Shown here in pieces: positions 5,820-61,820 of a DNA stretch of 64,000 bases. This stretch comes from Gammaproteobacteria bacterium (lineage in GTDB: Bacteria > Pseudomonadota > Gammaproteobacteria > Pseudomonadales > Pseudohongiellaceae). How positions within the stretch are numbered: the first letter of the stretch is position 1; each line of letters opens with the position of its first letter. The notes beneath the pieces are model-generated. The model was not told the origin of the DNA and made no database searches. It saw only the letters and a list, made by a program, of their open reading frames with translations. The position numbers and the translations under genes are program-made. The stretch is taken from the NCBI GenBank assembly GCA_019654215.1, contig BPDI01000002.1, forward strand, positions 84,007 to 148,006. The letters run 5' to 3'.

Positions 5820-6845
5820 CTAGGCTCCTTCGTCTGAATTTTCTTCTTCATTAATTAGTAGTCGATCCGGAATGTCCAGACCAACTTCGCGATAATAGCG
5901 TAAAGCACCTGTATGGAGAGGTGCGCCTAGACCATCGATTGCAATTTCTGGACGCATATCATTAGTTGCGCCATGGATTTCTTGTAGTGTTGCCAGATTT
6001 TCCCATATTACTTTTGTTATGTTATAGACCACTTCTTCTGGAATATCCACTCGCGTCACTAAGACATTGGGTGATGCAACCGTGCGAATATTTTCGGTCT
6101 GGCTGGGGTAGGTACCGGGAGGAAAATCATACCAATCCCATAGAGGATAGCGGGCATTTAATTTATCCAGGGAGTCTTGAGTCCAATTCAATATAGTCAT
6201 GCGTTCGCCCATGAATGCATAGGCTCGGGTAATTGCACTCACGGGCGCGCCGGCTGGAATATTCATGCCAACAATATTGCCATCCTGAATCGCATTCGAG
6301 GTTGGTCCATATCCCATATAGGCAAGATTGAATTTTTCTTCGTAGTCGATACCGAGGGTATCTAAAATAAATCTTCCGGTTTGTTCCGCGCCGGAGTTTC
6401 TTGCGCCCAGCACATAGCGTTCGTCATCCAGGCGATCCAAATCCATCATAAATTTGGTATCGGTTAGTTCAGTGAGCAAGACAAAATGTTCAACGTTCTT
6501 CCATAGTGCGCTAACACTACGAATATGAGTTTGTGGCCTACTTACAGGTCCTTCTCCAGTCCAGGACCAAGCTCCGAATGGCCCCTGCAAGATTGCGAAC
6601 TGCACTTGGTTGTCGCGCAACAGCTTTAAGTTTTCCATTGAGCCAGCTGAACTAATCGCCGTTAGAGATATTCCTTCCGATTCGTAAAGTTGCGCATGGG
6701 TCAAAGTGGCAATGGCGACACCAACAGGATAAAAAGTTCCACCGGTGGTGGCAGTGGTGAGGACGTAAGGTCTTGCTCTGGAAAGTTCATCGCTACAGGA
6801 ACTGAGCGTAATCGCGAAAGTCAGTGCTACAACTAGTTTCTTCAT
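5820..6845 (-). CDS. TAXI family TRAP transporter solute-binding lipoprotein
   Basis: Periplasmic substrate-binding subunit of the TRAP system. The N-terminus is a lipoprotein signal (KKLVVALTFAITLSSC, lipobox LSSC), so the protein is expected to be tethered to the membrane by a lipidated cysteine at about residue 17. The mature protein begins with the TAXI signature TTATTGGTFYPVGVAIATL and has ISSAGSMENLKLL and FAILQGPFGAWSW. Length (341 residues) is normal. It is the first gene of the minus-strand set binding protein, fused permease, oxidoreductase. The 378-base region upstream should hold the operon promoter. TAXI members bind glutamate, dicarboxylates or unknown acids; the ligand here cannot be told. 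Confidence 0.88.
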   Translation of the reverse strand: MKKLVVALTFAITLSSCSDELSRARPYVLTTATTGGTFYPVGVAIATLTHAQLYESEGISLTAISSAGSMENLKLLRDNQVQFAILQGPFGAWSWTGEGPVSRPQTHIRSVSALWKNVEHFVLLTELTDTKFMMDLDRLDDERYVLGARNSGAEQTGRFILDTLGIDYEEKFNLAYMGYGPTSNAIQDGNIVGMNIPAGAPVSAITRAYAFMGERMTILNWTQDSLDKLNARYPLWDWYDFPPGTYPSQTENIRTVASPNVLVTRVDIPEEVVYNITKVIWENLATLQEIHGATNDMRPEIAIDGLGAPLHTGALRYYREVGLDIPDRLLINEEENSDEGA

Positions 6846-7223
6846 TCAGAGTCCGTCGCGATTGCTTTGTTTTTTATTCTTAGGTTTCGAATTCTGCTCT
6901 TTATTTGGCTTCGGATGAAACCATATTTGTCTAGAAATCACAATAAACTCACTAGGTTACGGTGTCTGCATATGGGTGTTTGATAGCTGGCTAATTGTCT
7001 GATTTTTCTTAAATGTAGAGAGTTACTGTGGGAGAAACAGTGGAACCACTCTGGCGATGAATTCTAGGTGGTTTTAGTTGCGCACTGTCACTGTTCAGGG
7101 GGAAAGTGTTGTAAGCAGATTGAATGCGCTATCATTTGCGATCCGGGAATAAAAGTAAAACGCATTAGTGCTGGTAGCAACAATTATTCTAGCTATTAGC
7201 GGGATCTTCACGGAAGTAACTAC
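6846..7223. other. Intergenic region upstream of the TRAP operon
   Basis: 378 bases without a convincing coding frame. Both flanking genes are on the minus strand, so this stretch should hold the promoter of the TRAP operon and the 3' end of the small membrane protein transcript. I see no clear rho-independent terminator and no confident -35/-10 pair. Short AT-rich segments occur at about 6900-6960 and 7140-7200. Confidence 0.4.
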
Positions 7224-7487
7224 TTAATCTGCTTTCCTTCTATCGGCGCCTAGAGTGTCTTTTACATGACCGGAAAGAGGGACTTCTTCATCCATTTTGG
7301 AAACTAGTATCGTCGCACCCGCTAATACCGATGCGCCAATAGTGACGCCGACGATAAGCGCAATCCTTAATAGCATATGAACATGAATACCGGTGTAGTA
7401 CTCACCGACTTCAGCGATGACATTAACCAGTACCAGAGCAATACCGAAGGATGTCCAGATTGCTTTTTGCATGGTGAAAGCGCTCAT
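7224..7487 (-). CDS. Small two-helix membrane protein, unknown
   Basis: An 87-residue protein with two hydrophobic segments (about residues 8-26, IWTSFGIALVLVNVIAEVG, and about 37-64, HMLLRIALIVGVTIGASVLAGATILV) and a short charged, lysine/arginine/aspartate-rich tail. I do not recognise a family. It is the last gene of the long minus-strand run that starts near 18.1 kb and lies 24 bases downstream of the second FG-GAP gene, so it may be co-transcribed. The length and hydrophobic pattern support a real protein; the role is unknown. Confidence 0.55.
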   Translation of the reverse strand: MSAFTMQKAIWTSFGIALVLVNVIAEVGEYYTGIHVHMLLRIALIVGVTIGASVLAGATILVSKMDEEVPLSGHVKDTLGADRRKAD

Positions 7488-7511
7488 AACTGGCGCTCGC
7501 GGAAATGGATG

Positions 7512-9167
7512 TTAATTCGAGAGTAACAGTATTCCTTGAACCTGACTACTGTCGTGTTGGGTAAATACAAATACATCGTCAAGAGAATCTGCATTTAGTC
7601 GAACCGGGATGATGTCGCCGTTTTCTGCAGTTGTGCCAAGATCAATGACGATATCTGGATTACGGTCATCAATTAATGTGAGATGAGGATTACCACCAAT
7701 AACGATATTGTCGATGATTTCACGAAGATTTATTTCGTAGCTATCTTGATCGCGGCTGTAGTCCAATGCGCCGAGAAATTCTTCGGAATCGTCTTCTGGC
7801 TCAATACTGTTAAGAAATAATTCCACCTGATTATTAACCAAGACTAATAAATCTTCCTGATCGAAAGCATCATCGAGATTGCCTACATTAGTTGGAATAA
7901 ATTCGTCAGTATGAATCTCTCTTGCTTCCGATGCCAGGTCCTGGAAAGTTGTAGCGAGTCGAATAACGGAAGGAAAGCGCAGATCGACAGTAAGTTTACG
8001 TGCTGGTCGGCGGGCAAAACGTTCTCCATCATTGGGATAAACAAAAGCTTCTATGGCAACGCTGCCGGAAATCGCTAGCCAGACAAAGATATCTCCAACT
8101 GAAATGGGCTCTACTCGCCAAAGCCAGAGATCTTTCAAACCGTCTCCATTTTCATCGTAGAGAAACGTGCTTAAGACATTGCCACCCGAACGTAATACCT
8201 GTCGTGGTTGTTCCAAATTCATGCCGGTGTAAGTGCCACCGAACAGTGAAACTTTACCGCCTTCTCGTAGCAGTAAGTCTTCGATGCCATCACCGTCTAC
8301 GTCGTCTAACACTTCTTCGTGAGTGAGTGCGAGTACGCCGGTCAAATTGGAAAAGTCGAGATTATCGATATCGAAATCACCCAGACGTTCTTCTATTTCA
8401 GCAATGTCGATGGAGTAAGAAGCACCACTGGAGAAATAAGCATCGCCAATTTCATCAGCGATAAAGACATCGAGCCGTTCATCGGTTCGAGAAATCAAAT
8501 CATCATAGCCGTCACTGTTTACGTCTCGCAGCTCCATAAAGGGAATTCGCACGGCTTGGCCGGTTCGCCGTTCCAGAGCATTAGGTTGCAGCATTGTACG
8601 CATGCGGTTTTCAGATTCTATGGTTAGCCCGGATTGATAACTGTAATTAGCGCCGGCAATAAACACATGTAAGTTGCCTGCACCGGGGATAATGAGGTCT
8701 TCATAACTATCGCCGTTTATATCCCGCGAAAAATAAAGTCTGTTCACACCTTTGCTTAGAAAGCCTTGCAGCCCTGATTTGATTAGTTGAGGTTCTTGGA
8801 TTGCTTCATCTTCAACTGGCCAAACATAGGCATCGGTACCATTAACTAGAGCAATGATAGACGCGCGATCGTTATCACCGTAGTTAGTGCTCAGATCCCA
8901 GCCCACAGCCTGTCCGGAAAAATCAATCTCTTTAAAACCGTTATCGAAATCGAATCCGTCTTCTCGTTGGAAATAAATGCGCAGGGATTCATCGATTACC
9001 GTAATCAACTCATTTAACGAATCGCCATTAAGGTCCGCAACGATTAACTGTTCGCTTTCTACTGGCAGGGTGAACGGTAGCTGAGTATATGTGGGGGTAT
9101 TGGCAAATGTCAGGCCAAAACTTGCGCATGAATATAAAAGAAGAAAGACTTTGCTGAAAGCTTTCAC
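7512..9167 (-). CDS. Secreted FG-GAP/VCBS-repeat protein (second of a pair)
   Basis: 551-residue exported protein with an N-terminal signal peptide (KAFSKVFLLLYSCASFGLTFA). It has repeated acidic calcium-binding loops of the FG-GAP/VCBS type, for example ADLNGDSLNELI, RDINGDSYEDLI, RDVNSDGYDDLI, DVDGDGIEDLLL and DENGDGLKDLWL, so a seven-bladed beta-propeller is likely over much of the chain. Such propellers bind other proteins or polysaccharides; none of the visible segments suggests an enzyme. The start codon overlaps the stop of the upstream paralogue by four bases (ATGA), which indicates translational coupling and probably a working pair. It is intact, unlike many neighbours. Confidence 0.8.
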   Translation of the reverse strand: MKAFSKVFLLLYSCASFGLTFANTPTYTQLPFTLPVESEQLIVADLNGDSLNELITVIDESLRIYFQREDGFDFDNGFKEIDFSGQAVGWDLSTNYGDNDRASIIALVNGTDAYVWPVEDEAIQEPQLIKSGLQGFLSKGVNRLYFSRDINGDSYEDLIIPGAGNLHVFIAGANYSYQSGLTIESENRMRTMLQPNALERRTGQAVRIPFMELRDVNSDGYDDLISRTDERLDVFIADEIGDAYFSSGASYSIDIAEIEERLGDFDIDNLDFSNLTGVLALTHEEVLDDVDGDGIEDLLLREGGKVSLFGGTYTGMNLEQPRQVLRSGGNVLSTFLYDENGDGLKDLWLWRVEPISVGDIFVWLAISGSVAIEAFVYPNDGERFARRPARKLTVDLRFPSVIRLATTFQDLASEAREIHTDEFIPTNVGNLDDAFDQEDLLVLVNNQVELFLNSIEPEDDSEEFLGALDYSRDQDSYEINLREIIDNIVIGGNPHLTLIDDRNPDIVIDLGTTAENGDIIPVRLNADSLDDVFVFTQHDSSQVQGILLLSN

Positions 9168-52879: not shown

Positions 52880-54994
52880 CTAATTTTCGATCCAGACTGG
52901 CTGGGTGAAAGCACCGTTTCGAGCGATATCCCAAACTTCGATGCGGACCCAGCTTCGATTAGATAAATCCATATTTCTATCTATAGTTTCTGAATCAAAT
53001 TCAGTGGTATGAGATAGATCGATTCGATCTCTATAGATCGTGGTGCCATCGCCACTGATGATTTCCATATAAGAAAGCGGGTAGGTCCACTCCAAGTCCG
53101 CGATTAACTTGGCAGACTCATTTTTGTTAATTGTTTCGCCACTTTCCATACCCTCGACCGAAAAGTCTACGATGAGAACTTCGCCAGTCGTAACAAAGAA
53201 TTTTCCATTGGCAAGGGCATCAACTACTGGTTGCCAGCCGTCTTCGTAGTCAGGAATTTCATCCAGCCTTAAATAGTTAATGTTCATGGTGCCAAAGAGT
53301 TCGTAGTCTTCATAGATCTTAAAAATATCTACTTCGCCGAGAATGTACTTTCTTGCTCCCCAGTTCGCCATGTCATCTTCAAGATCCAGCACACGCCATC
53401 CCAACATTTCTCTCGAATAATCTGCCGGCATGGCTTTCCAGGCGCCACCAAGAAAATGTTCGCTTAGAAAAAAATCCTGATCGTTGTAGCCATCAGGGAA
53501 ACCTGTCGAGCCTTTAACTCGAGGATGAGCTGTCCAGGCTAACCCGTCCTCTTGTTCTAAAAGATTAAGCACGTCATCGGCACTTCCTACGTGATACACA
53601 GTGCCGTAACCTGGTATGTCTTGCACGAACGGTTGTCCCTGATTCTGATTTAGTACCCAATACACGGGCTTAGGAAACATGCTTAACCAGTGACTGTTCA
53701 AATGTACGTTGGGCTCTTCCCCTGGGATAAGCAAAAAATCGTCTCCGGACAAACGCGCAAATTCATCATGCATGACTTTCAATTCAGCCAGGCGTTGATC
53801 GGTTTCAGTTCCAGGGGTGCGACCAAAATGAAACTCGGCCATATGCACCATATCCACACCCATGCGCTTAAAGAAATTCACGAAGTCAGGGTCTTCTAAG
53901 CCAGCCGGTACGCCTATTGTATTTTGTTCCTGCTGCATATTGATGAAATCCATTGAATGTTCGTGATGATAATGGCTGGATAAAGTCTTATAACCTTCGA
54001 GAGCTTTAAAGGAATCGCTACGCGTATAACGTTTAACGATTTCTAAATTATCTAAACCTGATTGCTCAGACAGAAATAACAGAACCCCTAATTTTTGAAC
54101 TGATGATGGTTGTGCGTTTACCCAGGGGACGAAACGACGATCCCCCATGGGCGGTTGCCTTACACCAAAGGCGAAACCATCGATCATGTCTAAGTATTCC
54201 GCTCCCGCCCAGTTATAGCCATAGTTGTCTGCAAAATCTAAGGGATACAAATACTGATGGGGGAAAGGGGATATGACTAGAGATCCATTAGTATTTGATA
54301 AAGCTAAACTGCGATAACGTGTCTTATAAACACTGGCAGTAGAATTTAAGATCGGATCAATGTGAGGATTGTCGTGAGCATCAAACCACTCAACATGGTG
54401 GCCTTCGGTTTCTGGTTTCGCCAGTCCGACATGGTATAGAAACGCTGTTGCAGGACGTTCGGTCGAAACTCTTGCTTCCATGTGCACGAATGGACTGTCG
54501 TGATAAAGGATAAAGGCAAGGGAACCAGCGAAGTTAGTACTACTCAGACCTTCGATTTCAATTGTAGCGCGGCCACCTTCTGTAGATACGTTTACGCTTT
54601 CTGGGATCAAATAGCCTTTTTCAACAGAGTAAGGACGTGTAGGCACTCGATCAAAAAATATTTCCCAGCCATCCCTCAGTTCCAGGTCTCTATCGCCTAT
54701 CCAAAACAAATAGTTCGGATCGACTTCTTCGATGATGGATTCGCCGTTAATACCCAGTTCTCGAATTAGTGGTGCTGCCGCGCTGTTACCTCGGCGGGGA
54801 ATGAATTGCAGATCTATATAGGCTCTTCCTTCTGGTGCATTCCATTGCAGCACTAAACCATCATCGCGTGTAGTTAAATCAAAATCACCGTTGGCCATGA
54901 ATCCTTGTTGAGTAATGTCTGCAGCAAGAATAACTGTTGAGAAAGACGCTAAAGTCAGAGCAAAGAAAGTCGCAATCAATTGCCTCATGTTCAC
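52880..54994 (-). CDS. Secreted PHP-superfamily metallohydrolase-like protein (CehA/McbA-like)
   Basis: 704 residues with a signal peptide (QLIATFFALTLASFSTVILAADI). The first ~330 residues are beta-rich with many aromatic residues. The C-terminal half has histidine/aspartate clusters typical of PHP/CehA-McbA metallohydrolases: LSSHYHHEHSMDF, VDMVHMAEFHFG, LLIPGEEPNVHLNSHW and LAWTAHPRVKG, which could hold two or three divalent metals. The final ~120 residues form a beta domain (TYPLSYMEIISGDGTTIYRD). It probably hydrolyses an ester or phosphoester in the periplasm. It lies 11 bases downstream of the TonB-like lipoprotein and the receptor, suggesting that uptake and hydrolysis go together. 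Substrate unknown. Confidence 0.75.
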   Translation of the reverse strand: MNMRQLIATFFALTLASFSTVILAADITQQGFMANGDFDLTTRDDGLVLQWNAPEGRAYIDLQFIPRRGNSAAAPLIRELGINGESIIEEVDPNYLFWIGDRDLELRDGWEIFFDRVPTRPYSVEKGYLIPESVNVSTEGGRATIEIEGLSSTNFAGSLAFILYHDSPFVHMEARVSTERPATAFLYHVGLAKPETEGHHVEWFDAHDNPHIDPILNSTASVYKTRYRSLALSNTNGSLVISPFPHQYLYPLDFADNYGYNWAGAEYLDMIDGFAFGVRQPPMGDRRFVPWVNAQPSSVQKLGVLLFLSEQSGLDNLEIVKRYTRSDSFKALEGYKTLSSHYHHEHSMDFINMQQEQNTIGVPAGLEDPDFVNFFKRMGVDMVHMAEFHFGRTPGTETDQRLAELKVMHDEFARLSGDDFLLIPGEEPNVHLNSHWLSMFPKPVYWVLNQNQGQPFVQDIPGYGTVYHVGSADDVLNLLEQEDGLAWTAHPRVKGSTGFPDGYNDQDFFLSEHFLGGAWKAMPADYSREMLGWRVLDLEDDMANWGARKYILGEVDIFKIYEDYELFGTMNINYLRLDEIPDYEDGWQPVVDALANGKFFVTTGEVLIVDFSVEGMESGETINKNESAKLIADLEWTYPLSYMEIISGDGTTIYRDRIDLSHTTEFDSETIDRNMDLSNRSWVRIEVWDIARNGAFTQPVWIEN

Positions 54995-55005: not shown

Positions 55006-55755
55006 TTAATCGGGAAGCTGCCAGTCGAATCTATATTGTACATTATCAACTCGAACAGAGCCGTCAAAGATAATGCGCGGTTCAAAGCGTAATCGATAGG
55101 CGGAGTTGATGGCTTCATCGTTAAAGACACCCGGTGGTTGGCTTTCTACTATCGCAACATTTTCCACCATGCCCTGCTCAGTCACATCGAAGCTCACTAC
55201 AACATAGCCTTCAATACTCAGTTCTTCCGCGACGTCAGGATAGTTCGGTGTGATGAAGCGCATGGGAATGAGTTCACGAAATACCACTTCGTCGGACGGT
55301 GGTTCCACTAGTATGGAATTCTGTTCTTCTAATGCGTAGCGAAATACATAGCGAATATCGTCGAGGGTTTCTCCCCGAGTGTTGTCGAACATCATGCGCC
55401 GAGCTGCGTTTACCGCGGACTGTCGGAAATATCCGATAGGTTGTTCTTCAATCGCACGAATCGTATTACCAATCACTTCACCTTCTTCATCAACTGAAAA
55501 TTCAACCATCACCCAACCTTCGATTCCCAGATTGCGTGCCCTTAATGGGTAAAGGGGTTCAGCAACTCTGCGTGTTATCAACCCACGGGTGAAATTAGGA
55601 GGAGGAGTGAGCTCTGGAGAAGAGCTAGTAGAAACAGTTCGAGAGCCTTCGTCGACAACAACACAGCTGCCTAGCAAGAATAGACTTGCCAGTAGTGAGA
55701 AATGGTTGAGGTAATGCTTAATCCGTAGCCATTTTTTTAGGTAGTTAATCCCCAT
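55006..55755 (-). CDS. TonB-like lipoprotein with two TonB C-terminal domains
   Basis: About 249 residues from the ATG at 55755 (the track's start at 55788 is a TTG). A lipoprotein signal (FSLLASLFLLGSC, lipobox LLGSC) replaces the usual TonB membrane anchor, and there is no long proline-rich spacer. Two TonB C-terminal domains follow in tandem: VAEPLYPLRARNLGIEGWVMVEFSVDEEG and FITPNYPDVAEELSIEGYVVVSFDVTEQG, each ending in a conserved F-x-P/R region. Normal TonB has one such domain and an inner-membrane helix. It lies between the receptor and the metallohydrolase, so it probably interacts with the receptor's TonB box, although energy transduction from a lipoprotein is not established. Confidence 0.78.
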   Translation of the reverse strand: MGINYLKKWLRIKHYLNHFSLLASLFLLGSCVVVDEGSRTVSTSSSPELTPPPNFTRGLITRRVAEPLYPLRARNLGIEGWVMVEFSVDEEGEVIGNTIRAIEEQPIGYFRQSAVNAARRMMFDNTRGETLDDIRYVFRYALEEQNSILVEPPSDEVVFRELIPMRFITPNYPDVAEELSIEGYVVVSFDVTEQGMVENVAIVESQPPGVFNDEAINSAYRLRFEPRIIFDGSVRVDNVQYRFDWQLPD

Positions 55756-55791
55756 GGCTTTTTCTTTTAGCTTGTGTGAATTTATCAAATT

Positions 55792-57927
55792 TTAGAAAGT
55801 AGTTCTCACTCTTAGAGCCAGTTCCATCCCATTTCCGTTGCAGTAATCTTCAATTTCTCCCACCACGCCATCAACTGTCCGCCCCTTGAATCGTGTTCTC
55901 TTTCGGCAAAATTCATTTTCCGTAATGTTGCGAGATTCGAAACGGAAAGTAACATTACCAAAGGCTACTTTTTCAACGTAGGCAGAGAGATAGGGTTGGT
56001 TTATTTGTTCTTCTATATCGTCTATGTCGTAAGCCTTGCGCCCAGTACTACCATTGGAATTGTTGCCATAGTTAAAGCCATAAGTAAGTTGTTGGCTGGT
56101 TATGTCATGACGGAATCCCATATTCAATGACCAGCGGCCATTATTTCGCTGGCGTCGCTTAATTCTAAGGAACGGATCAGTAAATTCAGAATCTCTCAAT
56201 CTTATGCCTGTGGTAAGCAAAGCATTTTGAATGCTGAAACGATCTAATTTGGCACTTACATCAAGATTCAGGCCATAGCGGTATCCATCTCCTATATTGC
56301 CTCGAGCAGATTGCAGATTAACGGAAGATGGAGATACATCGACTTTGTCGATATGGTCCTCTACGTCGCGGTACCAAAATTGTGAATTCACGACGCCGGC
56401 ATCATCGGGTAATCGAAACTCCAGATTAAGTTCATAGCGCCAGGATTGCTCCTGAACGATTTCTGGATTTCCTGCCTGAGTGTTTTTATCTTCGTCGCTA
56501 CTATCAGTGGAAGCGCTGAAATCAGAAAAACTCAGTTGGTCTACATCTTTTTCAATTCCTGCTCGCAATTGGATTGAGGGAGTTATGTCATAGCGGTAAT
56601 CAATTTTGGGTTTTATAAAATCAAAATCTCTTTCCCTGTGCACATCCCCTGATTGCTCAATTGCAGAAGTTTCATAAAGCAGAGAGCTTTCTACTGCCAT
56701 GCGGCCATTGATCTGCCAATTATGAACGGCAAATGGTTCATAGCGAAACTCTTCGACAGTGGAGAAGCTGTTATCAACGCTAACTGGAACCAGGTTACCG
56801 AAATCAGCAGAAGGCGTTCCGGGGATGTCCAGCCCCATTCTTAAGCTAGAATCTCTAATGGTTTGCGCGCCTTCAATTCCCAGTTCTATGGCATGGGCGA
56901 GATCGAGGTCCCAGGTATAAGAGCTGCGGGCAATGCGTTCACGGTCCCTACCAGTTCCAGCAAGAAATAGATTGGGTTTTTCTAACATGTTTTCTAGATT
57001 AGAACGAACTCTGTCATAACCAAATTCGCGGTCATTGACAATAAATAAGAAGCGATACTTGGCGCCATTATCAAATGTGTATTCGTAATCTCCACCTATC
57101 TCCCAGTTGGTTCGATCGCTGTCACTCACCTCAGTTTGTATAAGGGAAGTATTATTAATCAGATCGTTGATTGTGCGAAAGCGGTCCTGTGGCGAGCGAG
57201 TGCGATCTTCTGCCAAAGCATTAAACTGAATCACACTGCGCTCCATGGTATAACCAAGGTTCATGCTGGCTGCAAACTCTGTGCGGTCCCGTGTTGTTTC
57301 TTCTTTTCGAGTTTCGATGAGGTTGCCAGCGCCATCGTAACTAAACTCTCTAGCGCGACTATTGCGGTAGTTAGGTTCGGCTTCAAAAGAAAATAAATAA
57401 TTGAGCCCCTCGGATTGGCCGCTAAGTGAAACGGAGCCACCTGGGTCTAAGGTACCGTCTTGTTTGCGATCAGTGCGCAACTCTACCGAAGTACTGGAAC
57501 GAGAAGGGCTATCCACCAAAACAACATTAACCACCTGGCCTCCGCTACGCACATCGAGTACTTCAGAAGTGCCACGAATAATCTCAATGTATTCAACTTG
57601 GTCTGCGGAAATGCGATTGAGTTGATCGCGACCTTCATTGTTTTTGCCGGTAATCCGCTGCCCGTTGATTAAAACTTCGCCTTCTCCAGAGCCAAGGCCG
57701 CGCCCGCTATTTCCTCCGCGCAATGCCAGGCCAATACCAGGAATCCGATTGAGCATGTCGTCAGCAGATACTGGGAAGTATTCGGCAAAATAACTGGCGG
57801 GGTAAACAACAGTAGAATCGTCCGAAGGAAATTCAGGTTGTACTAATTGCGCCGAAACTCCAGGTGCTGCAGTTAACAGCGAGAGTATGACTAATGCTTT
57901 TATACTTTTCGTAGGGTGAAATTTCAT
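55792..57927 (-). CDS. TonB-dependent outer membrane receptor
   Basis: 711 residues from the ATG at 57927, chosen because a signal peptide starts there (TKSIKALVILSLLTAAPGVSAQ). The plug domain has YFPVSADDMLNRIPGIGLALRGGNSGRGLGSGEGEVLINGQRITGKN and EYIEIIRGTSEVLDVRSGGQVVNVVL; a beta-barrel of many strands follows, ending in Phe (ALRVRTTF). It is intact. The same plug layout, with nearly the same motifs, recurs in the truncated gene at 63.0 kb. It heads an operon with the TonB-like lipoprotein and the metallohydrolase. Substrate unknown. Confidence 0.85.
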   Translation of the reverse strand: MKFHPTKSIKALVILSLLTAAPGVSAQLVQPEFPSDDSTVVYPASYFAEYFPVSADDMLNRIPGIGLALRGGNSGRGLGSGEGEVLINGQRITGKNNEGRDQLNRISADQVEYIEIIRGTSEVLDVRSGGQVVNVVLVDSPSRSSTSVELRTDRKQDGTLDPGGSVSLSGQSEGLNYLFSFEAEPNYRNSRAREFSYDGAGNLIETRKEETTRDRTEFAASMNLGYTMERSVIQFNALAEDRTRSPQDRFRTINDLINNTSLIQTEVSDSDRTNWEIGGDYEYTFDNGAKYRFLFIVNDREFGYDRVRSNLENMLEKPNLFLAGTGRDRERIARSSYTWDLDLAHAIELGIEGAQTIRDSSLRMGLDIPGTPSADFGNLVPVSVDNSFSTVEEFRYEPFAVHNWQINGRMAVESSLLYETSAIEQSGDVHRERDFDFIKPKIDYRYDITPSIQLRAGIEKDVDQLSFSDFSASTDSSDEDKNTQAGNPEIVQEQSWRYELNLEFRLPDDAGVVNSQFWYRDVEDHIDKVDVSPSSVNLQSARGNIGDGYRYGLNLDVSAKLDRFSIQNALLTTGIRLRDSEFTDPFLRIKRRQRNNGRWSLNMGFRHDITSQQLTYGFNYGNNSNGSTGRKAYDIDDIEEQINQPYLSAYVEKVAFGNVTFRFESRNITENEFCRKRTRFKGRTVDGVVGEIEDYCNGNGMELALRVRTTF

Positions 57928-58186: not shown

Positions 58187-59103
58187 CTAGTTTGTTTCGT
58201 AGCTCGAAAAGCTGTCTTCGCCTTCGCCGCCGATAAAAACTGAATACTTGGCATCGCCGGTGAAGTTTGCTTTCAAGAACGCATAGACATATTTTCCTTG
58301 GGCTTCTAGCTCAGATCCTTGATTGGCGGGAATCATGTGTCCGCCTTCGGCAAATTCCATGTATACCTTCGAAGTTGAAGCATTAATGGAATCATAGAGC
58401 ATGCGTGCATGGGTATCTGGTGGGGCAATCGATCGTCAGCAGTTGCGATAATAAGCGTTGGGGTTGTAACACCATTCAAATCACCTTCGAATGACTGACC
58501 TAGTTCACAACAATAAGGAGTAAGAGGAAAGACCCCTTTAATTGCATCGCCTAACTCTTCGGCTGCTCTTAATGAGGCGCCGCCCCCTAAAGAATGCCCC
58601 ATGATGGCGATTTGGCTCTCATCGAGCTTGTTGGCGAGAGGGCTCTGGCTTGTTTGCGTTCTCGCGCTTAATCAATTCAATCCCGGCAATCAACGCGTTT
58701 TTTCTTTGTTCGAGATTATCTTCTGGCGTGTTGGTTTCAATAATCGCAGTGATTATGCCAACAGATGCCCGCATAGGACCCCACCAGTCATATACCTCTG
58801 GTGTGCCACGAAATCCTGGCGACATAACAACGGCACCGTTGGGGAGATCGAAACTCAAGGTCAGCGGATAGAAAATGGTCACACTGGCAAATTCGTCAAG
58901 ATCTGTGCCGGTCTCATAAGTGCGGGCTTCAAATAATCGATCATCGAAGAAATTTGCTGCATTTCTTGCAAATGTGCGTCCTTCAGGACGATATCGACCA
59001 GCGCTATTATCTTGGGCGGAAACCGTGAAAGCGGCAAGGTGCTTGCTATTAGAGCAATCCCCATTAGATAAGCCGTCAGGGATTTCATTCTCAGTAAATT
59101 CAT
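58187..59103 (-). CDS. Secreted alpha/beta-hydrolase resembling PET hydrolase/cutinase (frameshifted)
   Basis: Restored across about three to four indels. From ATG 59103 (AGAGGT upstream) a signal peptide ends near FTVSAQ, then GRYRPEGRTFARNAANFFDDRLFEARTY and TIFYPLTLSFDLPNGAVVMSPGFRGTPEVYDWWGPMRASVGI follow. The nucleophile elbow is GHSLGGG. FPLTPY, TPTLIIATADDRLAPPDTHARMLYDSI and YMEFAEGGHMIP give the expected acid (D) and histidine. The order and spacing match polyester hydrolases (compare GxSxGGG, PLTPW and the D/H pair of IsPETase), and the tail VYAFLKANFTGDAKYSVFI also fits. Close relatives among cutinases and dienelactone-hydrolase-type proteins make polyester activity unproven. Confidence 0.65.
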
Positions 59104-59396
59104 TTCAGTTAACCTCTCGTTTGTCATCGTGGTTAATCTAGAGCATTTTTATTTTTAGTCCTGGGTCAATGGGACCTGCAGAAAAATCAAATATAGCAAA
59201 GAGTTCAGGGGAGAGAAACAGAGTATAGATCCGGGCCCCGGGCCCCAAAATTGGGCTTTCAGCGCTTTCTTGGGGAGCCATGGACCTGAAATCTAATTCC
59301 TATTATTCTCAGTCTTCCTAAAAACAACTTGAAGTATCTATAAGTCATGAAGTTTTTGCTGAATTTCTTGTTAATTTGGACCCAAGTCCTGAGTAA

Positions 59397-60139
59397 ATGG
59401 TTAGTGTGGGTGTCACCCTCAGTTTAATCTTGGTTACCTCTGCTCAGGAATTGGGGGATCACACATACTCTACCGAGGCTATTGAGCGAGGAAGTCGAAT
59501 CTACTCCCGCGAATGCGCCTTATGCCACGGCCCTCAGGGGGATATCGTCGATGGTGTCAATCTTCGCACTGGCTATTTAGAAACGTGCGCTCAGATGAGG
59601 ACATACGCCGGGTGGTTATTCGGGCCCCGGGGGAAGGCCAAATGCCTGCGTTTGGATTAAGCGATAACGATCTCAATGCCATCGTTGCCTACATTAGAGC
59701 CGGGTTTGATCCTGAAGGAGTAGCATTCGCATTGGTGATCCGGCTCGTGGGCAAACTTTGTTCGAAGGAAAAGGAGAGTGTGCTAGTTGTCATCGTATTG
59801 ATGGTGTGGGACCAAGAACCGCGCCTGATTTATCAGAGATTGGTGCTATTCGCACACCGGCTTCATTACAAAGAAATTTATTGGATCCTGCTGCGGCGAT
59901 ACTACCAATTAACAGATCAATTCGGATCTAACACGGGATGAAGAGACTGTTACTGGTCGCGTTTGAATGAAGATACCTATACGGTCCAAGTAATTGATTC
60001 CAATGAGCAGCTTCGTTCGTTTCGAAAATCTGACTCGTCAATTATGAATCAGGTGCAGCCTAGTAAGTCACCAACCACATTAAACAGCGATGAGGTTGCA
60101 GATGTGGTTGGCTATTTATTAACTCTGCGAGGTCAATAA
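59397..60139 (+). CDS. Periplasmic dihaem cytochrome c (frameshifted)
   Basis: Restored across several frames from the ATG at 59397. A short signal (SLILVTSAQ) is followed by ERGSRIYSRECALCHGPQGDIVDGVNL, whose CxxCH binds the first haem. After a shift FRNVRSDEDIRRVVIRAPGEGQMPAFGLSDNDLNAIVAYI supplies the Met ligand (GQMPAFG). The second domain reads RIGDPARGQTLFEGKGECASCHRIDGVGPRTAPDLSEIG (second CxxCH) and ends DVVGYLLTLRGQ. At least four indels occur. Its stop overlaps the PQQ dehydrogenase start (TAATG), so it probably accepts electrons from that enzyme. Confidence 0.75.
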
Positions 60140-61789
60140 TGAACCAGTTAATTCTTTCTTACGCGACAAATTTTTTCATTGTCGGCCTAAGCACGGCGAT
60201 TCAGTTATCGCACAAGTTCCTTATGACAGAATCTTAAACGCCAACGAGGAACCGCATAACTGGTTGACCTATAACGGTGGTTATATGAGTCAACGTCATA
60301 GTTTGTTGGATCAGATAACTAAAGAGAATGTGGAAAACCTGGAGCTAAAGTGGGTTCTCCAAAATCAGGTATTCGGTGCTTGGCAATCTAATCCGATTAT
60401 CGTTGATGGCATCATGTATGTTACTGAAGACCTAATAGTGTGATGGCAGTTGATGCAGTAACCGGCAGGGTTTTTGGAAGTATCGTCATCAGAATGCGAA
60501 AACGCAGAGTTTGTTGTGGTGCAAACAATCGCGGAGTGGCGGTACTCAATGACAAAGTTTACATGGGAACCCTAGATGCAAATCTACTCGCTCTCGACCG
60601 TATTAATGGACAGCTTCTATGGAAAACTGAGGTCGGAGATGTAAACCTCGCCTACTCAATCACAATGGCTCCCTTAGCAGTTAAAGACAAAATAATGGTG
60701 GGCGTTGGCGGTGGAGAATTCGGCATTCGTGGTTATGTTGCCGCTTATGATGCTGAGACTGGCGAAGAGGCCTGGAAGACTTACACCATTCCTGGGCCTG
60801 GTGAGCCAGGCCATGACAGTTGGGAAGGAGATGATTGGGAACATGGCGGTGCGCCGGTTTGGATTACCGGTTCCTTTGACCCTGATCTAAATTTGACTTA
60901 CTGGGGGGTTGGTAACCCTGGTCCTGATTGGAATGCTGGACAACGTCCTGGAGACAATCTTTATTCAGATTCTGTCATTGCATTGGATGCGGACACCGGC
61001 GAATTAACCTGGCACTTTCAATTTACGCCTAATGAGGCTATGACTACGATTCGGTTCAGGTTCCTGTATTGGCCGATATGGTTTGGCGTGGTGAGGTGAA
61101 ACAACTAATGATGTGGGCTAACCGTAATGGTTATTTCTATGTACTAGATCGAACCAATGGTGAATTCTTGGAAGGAAAACCCTATGTGCGAGTGAATTGG
61201 TCTAGGGTCTGGATGAAAATGGCCGACCGATTCCGACGCCGCAACCAGAAGGAATGCCGACTTATCCAGGCAATCAGGGTGGGACTAATTGGTACCCACC
61301 TTCTTATAATCCTAATACTGGCTTGTTCTATTTTAGTGCCTGGGAAAACTACGCCACTATATACAGAGCAGAAGAATCAGAATACGTGCCGGGCCAGGCG
61401 TTTCTGGGAGGAGGATTCTCTGTTTAGCACCGTCACCCGGAGCACCTACTATTGGAATTGGGCGCACTAATCCGATTAACAATTGGACTGATGAAGTTGG
61501 ATACGCTTCATTAAAAGCTATGGATCCCCAAACTGGCGAACAAGTCTGGTCATATAATCAATTTGATGTCAGTGATAGTGGTATGTTGACTACTACTACC
61601 GATGTTTTGTTTACCGGCGGGCGTGAAGGTTATTTTCATGCAATCGATGCAGAGAGTGGCGAACTACTCTGGAATGTTGGTCTGGGTGGTCAGATCGTAA
61701 TGGCGCCAGTTACTTACATGGTAGGTGGCGTTCAATATGTTTCTGTGATTTCTGGAAACAGTTTGTCGACTTTTGCATTAGGAGACTAA
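60139..61789 (+). CDS. PQQ-dependent alcohol dehydrogenase-like quinoprotein (frameshifted)
   Basis: Fragments over several frames give one eight-bladed propeller of about 540 residues: NWLTYNGGYMSQRHSLLDQIT, VMAVDAVTGRVFW, AEFVCCGANNRGVAVLNDKV (the vicinal Cys-Cys of PQQ dehydrogenases), EPGHDSWEGDDWEHGGAPVW, YWGVGNPGPDWN, WHFQFTPNEAYDYD (catalytic aspartate region), LLWNVGLGGQIVMAPVTYMVGGVQYVSV. It starts at ATG 60139 with a signal-like N-terminus. Quinoprotein alcohol dehydrogenases oxidise alcohols or aldehydes in the periplasm and pass electrons to cytochrome c, here encoded just upstream. PQQ synthesis genes are not in the window. The substrate is unknown. About six indels are needed. 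Confidence 0.82.
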
Positions 61790-61820
61790 TTAATAGTCAT
61801 AAGGGGTCAGGATTAAAATT

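Follow-up and report, generated by a model that had tools for sequence, protein, structure and literature searches.

A lipoprotein with two tandem TonB C-terminal domains encoded beside a TonB-dependent receptor in an OM182-clade genus

The lipoprotein gene and its neighbors

The window analyzed in the current study, a stretch of 64,000 nucleotides from contig BPDI01000002.1 of a Gammaproteobacteria bacterium (GCA_019654215.1), carries on its minus strand the gene of a tandem TonB_C lipoprotein of 249 aa (55006..55755, stop codon included), flanked on the same strand by a TonB-dependent receptor upstream and a metallohydrolase downstream. Alignment of orthologs placed the start at the ATG at 55755; the mechanical ORF could reach back to a TTG at 55788. 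Comparison with the nearest relative gave a dN of 0.054 and a dS of 0.369, and the ORF is therefore a real gene under purifying selection. Moreover, its core residues and lipobox are retained among relatives down to 43-55% identity.

The protein begins with a type II signal peptide (55663..55755, minus strand) ending in the lipobox LLGS-C31, at which lipidation of Cys31 is predicted. In all 16 orthologs with complete N-termini, the window's own included, a cysteine with leucine at -3 closes the hydrophobic signal peptide, the remainder of which is poorly conserved. A start-site error as the source of the lipobox, which would have refuted the original prediction, can thus be excluded, since the orthologs align to the same ATG and share the cysteine and the leucine. 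The residue at +2 is Val in the window, with no Asp retention signal, and among the orthologs it is V, I, E, T, S or G, with Asp in none of them. In Escherichia coli, lipoproteins bearing a residue other than Asp at +2 are exported to the outer membrane. Because +2 is never Asp, the protein is predicted to reach the outer membrane, with the sorting read from one residue position and the domains predicted to face the periplasm. The linker between the lipidated cysteine and the first domain (55582..55662, minus strand) comprises approximately 27 residues with a near-invariant PP-N-x-TRGL at its end, and AlphaFold assigned residues 30-55 a pLDDT below 50. Five to seven prolines occur within the first 45 residues of the lipoproteins, and a long periplasm-spanning Pro-rich region is absent. 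A linker of this length is far too short to cross the periplasm, so that both domains should remain close to the outer membrane.

The remainder of the protein consists of two TonB C-terminal domains, D1 (55321..55581, approximately residues 59-145) and D2 (55009..55275, approximately residues 161-249), both on the minus strand. The model PF03544 (TonB_C) matched the lipoprotein in two stretches in hmmscan (E 2.8e-24, 85.8 bits), and when scored singly D1 and D2 reached 54.9 and 35.3 bits, both above the Pfam cut-off of 24.6 bits; TIGR01352 (tonB_Cterm) was also above its cut-off. In addition, D2 was matched by the solved structures of E. coli TonB in a sequence search (E 7e-10). The AlphaFold model, for which an alignment of 20 relatives was the input, had pLDDT values of approximately 84-93 across most of D1 and D2, with a poorly predicted interdomain linker and a helical signal peptide. 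All top matches of this model in a Foldseek search against the PDB were TonB C-terminal domains, including complexes with BtuB, FhuA and FoxA (TMt 0.84 for 1u07, 0.89 for 2gsk and 0.87 for 2grx), in a list that is silent on which domain was aligned; D1 and D2 resemble each other in secondary structure and confidence. A chance or weak match to TonB_C was excluded, given that both domains exceed the Pfam cut-off and that a TonB fold is confidently predicted. Taken together, the Pfam matches, the predicted fold and the ortholog N-termini bear out the anatomy originally proposed, with a lipobox in place of the anchor helix and a doubled C-terminal domain, and AlphaFold and Foldseek confidently predict a TonB C-terminal fold for both copies.

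The two domains differ at the site that corresponds to the receptor contact of TonB. Tyr163 and Pro164 of E. coli TonB are retained in both. At the position equivalent to Arg166, 29 of 34 TonBs and 14 of 18 D1 sequences have Arg (Arg72 in the window; Gln in the other four D1), and it is replaced in 18 of 18 aligned D2 sequences. Near this site, most D1 sequences have Glu or Gln at the Q160 position, at which D2 has Thr. The proposed contact of E. coli TonB Arg166 is Glu56 of the FhuA plug (PMC6118199). Because the Arg166 equivalent is mostly kept in D1 and absent from D2, D1 looks the more TonB-like of the two domains at the receptor contact, as judged from the alignment.

Upstream lies the cognate TonB-dependent receptor (55792..57927, minus strand), composed of a plug and a beta-barrel and 711 aa long if read from the start that aligns with relatives; the ORF is extendable to 58035. 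Its fold resembles that of FecA and other siderophore receptors, the matches in the fold search being general siderophore, heme and copper receptors only, and its sequence search against the PDB gave no match. A putative TonB box, D-S-T-V-V-Y-P-A (57796..57819, minus strand; residues 37-44), is located near the N-terminus of the mature protein and is conserved in alignments, its assignment resting on position and resemblance. Downstream, 11 bp from the lipoprotein gene, is an exported CehA/McbA-family metallohydrolase (52880..54994, minus strand). No ExbB/ExbD genes adjoin the lipoprotein gene, and sequences resembling promoters or terminators were no commoner here than in shuffled sequence, so that they do not fix the limits of an operon.

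Further upstream in the window, a PETase-like alpha/beta hydrolase (58187-59127, minus strand) is split over several short ORFs and is intact in relatives (L030, 4540-5457), while cytochrome-like and PQQ-dehydrogenase-like genes (59400-61790, plus strand) occur as pieces in different frames and are single intact ORFs in relatives. A TonB copy on another contig of the same assembly (C29 of G000) also holds stops. The broken genes at 59400-61790 and the stops in this TonB copy may reflect either assembly indels in the metagenome-assembled genome (MAG) or gene decay.

Distribution and pairing with the receptor

Full-length matches to the lipoprotein were found in 36 of 137 sampled genomes of the family, a count that takes in a few genomes having only secreted or M56-type paralogs, and all of them fall within one OM182-clade genus of eight. 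The named relatives are MAGs, including OM182 bacterium MED-G28 and Pseudomonadales and Gammaproteobacteria bins, which makes a marine gammaproteobacterium of the OM182 clade the most likely host. At the order level (295 genomes), the window itself was the only full-length match among the matches listed, and at the class level (369 genomes, E 1e-28) a full-length match was not found. The plasmid search returned single-domain matches only, and those with an annotation were labelled energy transducer TonB or TonB family protein.

Within this genus, a same-strand receptor of one subfamily (60-92% identity) was located upstream of the lipoprotein gene in all 32 genomes testable on their contigs, confirming the adjacency to a TonB-dependent receptor noticed in the window. 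The gap was at most approximately 160 bp in 30 of the 32 and reached 1.5 kb in G018 and 2.6 kb in G021. The other genes around the pair differ between genomes, upstream and downstream alike. The CehA/McbA-family hydrolase is the next gene downstream in about ten genomes, in which it is a probable operon partner of the pair, and unrelated genes take this place in others; as a conserved partner it was excluded, since it stands beside the pair in those ten or so genomes only. The combination of a lipobox and two TonB C-terminal domains beside a receptor, for which a search in other genomes had been suggested, thus recurs in other genomes of the genus.

Among the first 37 genomes of the genus, 13 carried both genes, six the receptor only, none the lipoprotein only and 18 neither (Fisher p 1e-5 for co-occurrence, with kinship among these genomes ignored). 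The receptor therefore stands without the lipoprotein in 6 of the 19 receptor-bearing genomes of this first sample. In the receptor tree, these lipoprotein-free receptors form two separate lineages nested in the lipoprotein-bearing group, a topology indicating that the lipoprotein was lost twice independently and that the receptor was kept both times. An obligatory receptor subunit is excluded by this finding, and a modulator fits better than an essential subunit. In one of these genomes (G036, locus L064), the receptor and the CehA/McbA-family hydrolase still adjoin and the intervening lipoprotein gene is gone. The branch of this receptor is long (0.51 vs. a median of 0.08), a single case that might reflect relaxed constraint.

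The receptor paralogs of the genus form a large family (44-57% identical), often with six to ten members per genome above the threshold used. No lipoprotein-type neighbor was seen beside the paralogous receptors inspected. The putative TonB box looks much alike whether or not the receptor is paired with the lipoprotein, and unpaired paralogs have a similar one. The original suggestion that the protein could be receptor-dedicated holds insofar as the same receptor subfamily accompanies it in every testable genome while other neighbors vary; it does not hold in the reverse direction, as the receptor is independent of the lipoprotein in the six genomes that lack it.

Relatives of the tandem module

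The doubled domain, originally contrasted with the single one of normal TonB, is present but not isolated. In this genus, the tandem TonB_C pair is also carried by secreted proteins that lack a lipobox (L049-L051) and, as a fusion, by M56 peptidases whose genes adjoin those of BlaI-type repressors (L052, L053). Related modules exist without an adjoining receptor. The two M56/BlaR1-type peptidases (L052, 7217-8875; L053, 7012-8676) have a Cys that follows their final hydrophobic stretch (LLSC and VVAC). In a domain tree built on 91 columns, and hence of limited resolution, the lipoprotein D1 and the M56 D1 were grouped at 99/86, with the secreted D1s adjoining (85/65), while the secreted D2 and the M56 D2 were joined at 96/86 and the lipoprotein D2 stood as a group of its own (95/76) within the same tree half. 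Separate domain duplications for the lipoprotein, secreted and M56 forms are disfavored by this arrangement, as the D1s cluster with D1s and the D2s lie in the other half, albeit on 91 columns only. The simplest reading of the tree is that one tandem module was reused in three settings. This reuse in lipoproteins, secreted proteins and M56 sensors means that a TonB annotation made from PF03544 alone can mislead.

One distant genome of the same order (L114) holds two- and four-domain TonB_C arrays that arose separately, with the two genes adjacent to each other and beside two single-domain TonBs (6412-8723, minus strand). In addition, two M56-like peptidases (L120, 1246-3954; L121, 3827-6631) combine an extended middle region with a single TonB_C domain at the C-terminus.

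A possible brake on the receptor, its alternatives and known systems

The reading that we favor, with a probability of roughly 0.4, is that the lipoprotein is a receptor-dedicated, motor-uncoupled binder of the TonB box in the outer membrane, acting as a brake or clamp on its receptor. As an outer-membrane lipoprotein facing the periplasm, it would serve one TonB-dependent receptor, and the short linker would keep both TonB-type domains near the membrane. There, D1 would pair with the TonB box of the adjoining receptor through beta-strand addition. With no inner-membrane helix or long spacer, the lipoprotein would lack coupling to ExbB/ExbD and could not pull the plug, and a TonB box that it occupied or held would be one for which docking of energized TonB is competed with, delayed or gated. 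The domain D2, without the plug-contacting arginine, might bind something else or steady D1. The gene, its lipobox, the two TonB folds, the pairing with the receptor and the asymmetry of D1 and D2 were established computationally. In this scheme we infer the outer-membrane location, the binding to the TonB box and the direction of the effect, and a brake is favored over an energizing or helping role because coupling to ExbB/ExbD would not be possible and because the protein has been dispensable over evolution. Synthesis of the periplasmic TonB domain was reportedly found by Howard et al. in 2001 (cited in PMC9769762) to inhibit transport through FecA and FhuA. Soluble, anchor-free TonB fragments also bind receptors (PMC11658791), and if a soluble domain binds and inhibits receptors, a tethered double domain encoded with one receptor would be expected to do likewise in cis. 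Against a brake, the pairing leaves no visible mark on the TonB box, and specificity for a single receptor is unexplained by the box sequence. The residues at the Q160 position, the tandem modules that lack an adjoining receptor and the reading of outer-membrane sorting from one residue position likewise count against it.

It is somewhat doubtful, though conceivable, that the lipoprotein amounts to a dedicated outer-membrane TonB mimic that, docked on the TonB box, gates one receptor without energy and makes it, among its many paralogs, individually controllable at the docking step. If true, this would add to TonB-dependent transport a control layer absent from the literature searched, and it would bear on the open question of how a small number of TonB molecules is divided among many receptors and how single receptors gain or lose access. 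A TonB domain that lacks a motor and comes naturally linked to a receptor would offer a tool ready for use and might supply an answer on receptor access, and the D1/D2 asymmetry together with the two natural losses make a small, testable system.

A positive adaptor is an unlikely alternative to the brake, in which the lipoprotein, tethered beside the receptor, would prevent the TonB box from being hidden or pass it on to energized TonB, for instance through a contact between D2 and TonB, raising uptake by a receptor that has many paralogs as competitors for limited TonB. That a single receptor, out of many paralogs, is so strictly paired would suit such a role, the asymmetry of D1 and D2 allows two different partners, and a busy Ton system is suggested by the four ExbD-type genes and several TonB-type proteins that the genome encodes. 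However, the receptor persists without the lipoprotein in two lineages, the literature searched yielded no known adaptor of this type, and the contact between D2 and TonB is a conjecture. Less likely still is a sensor or signalling module, in which the tandem TonB_C unit shared with M56/BlaR1-type proteins senses periplasmic ligands or proteins, with the lipoprotein signalling whether the receptor is occupied or the state of the envelope. The fusion of the same unit to M56 peptidases encoded next to BlaI-type repressors and the grouping of the two D1s at 99/86 point in this direction, but no conserved regulator gene was seen beside the lipoprotein in the neighborhoods compared, the lipoprotein has no cytoplasmic part, the tree is built on 91 columns only, and the M56 precedent itself has no assigned role for TonB_C.

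A structural tether that binds peptidoglycan or another envelope part and fixes the receptor in place, in a Pal-like manner, appears improbable. A peptidoglycan role has been suggested for TonB C-terminal domains, and a lipoprotein with periplasmic domains does adjoin an outer-membrane barrel; even so, D1 and D2 match TonB C-terminal domains by sequence and fold, and not OmpA-like or LysM domains. Finally, a degenerate TonB duplicate carried along with the receptor and with no function of its own, although consistent with the restriction to one genus and at least two losses, is very improbable given the residues kept at 43-55% identity, a dN well below dS and a receptor adjacency that outlasts the rearrangement of other neighbors.

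The TonB domain, the lipobox and the pairing with a receptor are each already known, and their combination was not found in the literature searched, in which we likewise found no tandem or lipoprotein TonB domains of such architecture and no direct match for OM182 and TonB. The TonB energy transducers (PF03544, TIGR01352; E. coli TonB) have in common with the lipoprotein the C-terminal fold, the YP and IEG motifs and, mostly in D1, the Arg166 equivalent, and differ from it in their inner-membrane helix and long spacer, in place of which it has a lipobox and two C-terminal domains. A role as an energy-transducing TonB is excluded, since the N-terminus is a lipoprotein signal peptide and the long spacer is absent. 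The M56/BlaR1 sensors L052 and L053 share the D1-D2 module by sequence, with D1s that cluster, but are inner-membrane peptidases, whereas the lipoprotein is the periplasmic module alone (TonB_C only, no Peptidase_M56) and stands beside a receptor. Like the lipoprotein, HasB and FusB are dedicated to one receptor system, as TonB paralogs, and the C-terminal domain of FusB was among the best fold matches. FusB is an inner-membrane-anchored transducer with a single C-terminal domain. HasB is an inner-membrane transducer with one C-terminal domain, unlike the lipoprotein (PMC3602595, PMC9008036). The periplasmic signalling domain of FecA can mask the TonB box (PMC11658791), and it has a different fold and lies inside the receptor itself, whereas here a TonB fold is placed on a separate protein. 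The MxcH-type receptors (NF038079), in which a TonB-like N-terminal domain is fused to the receptor, share the physical link between TonB domain and receptor, and the lipoprotein matched the N-terminal part of this model (E 2.8e-11, 42 bits vs. an equivalog cut-off of 925); these receptors are one fused chain, whereas the current locus encodes two separate ORFs (55006-55755 and 55792-57927), the first of them with two TonB domains.
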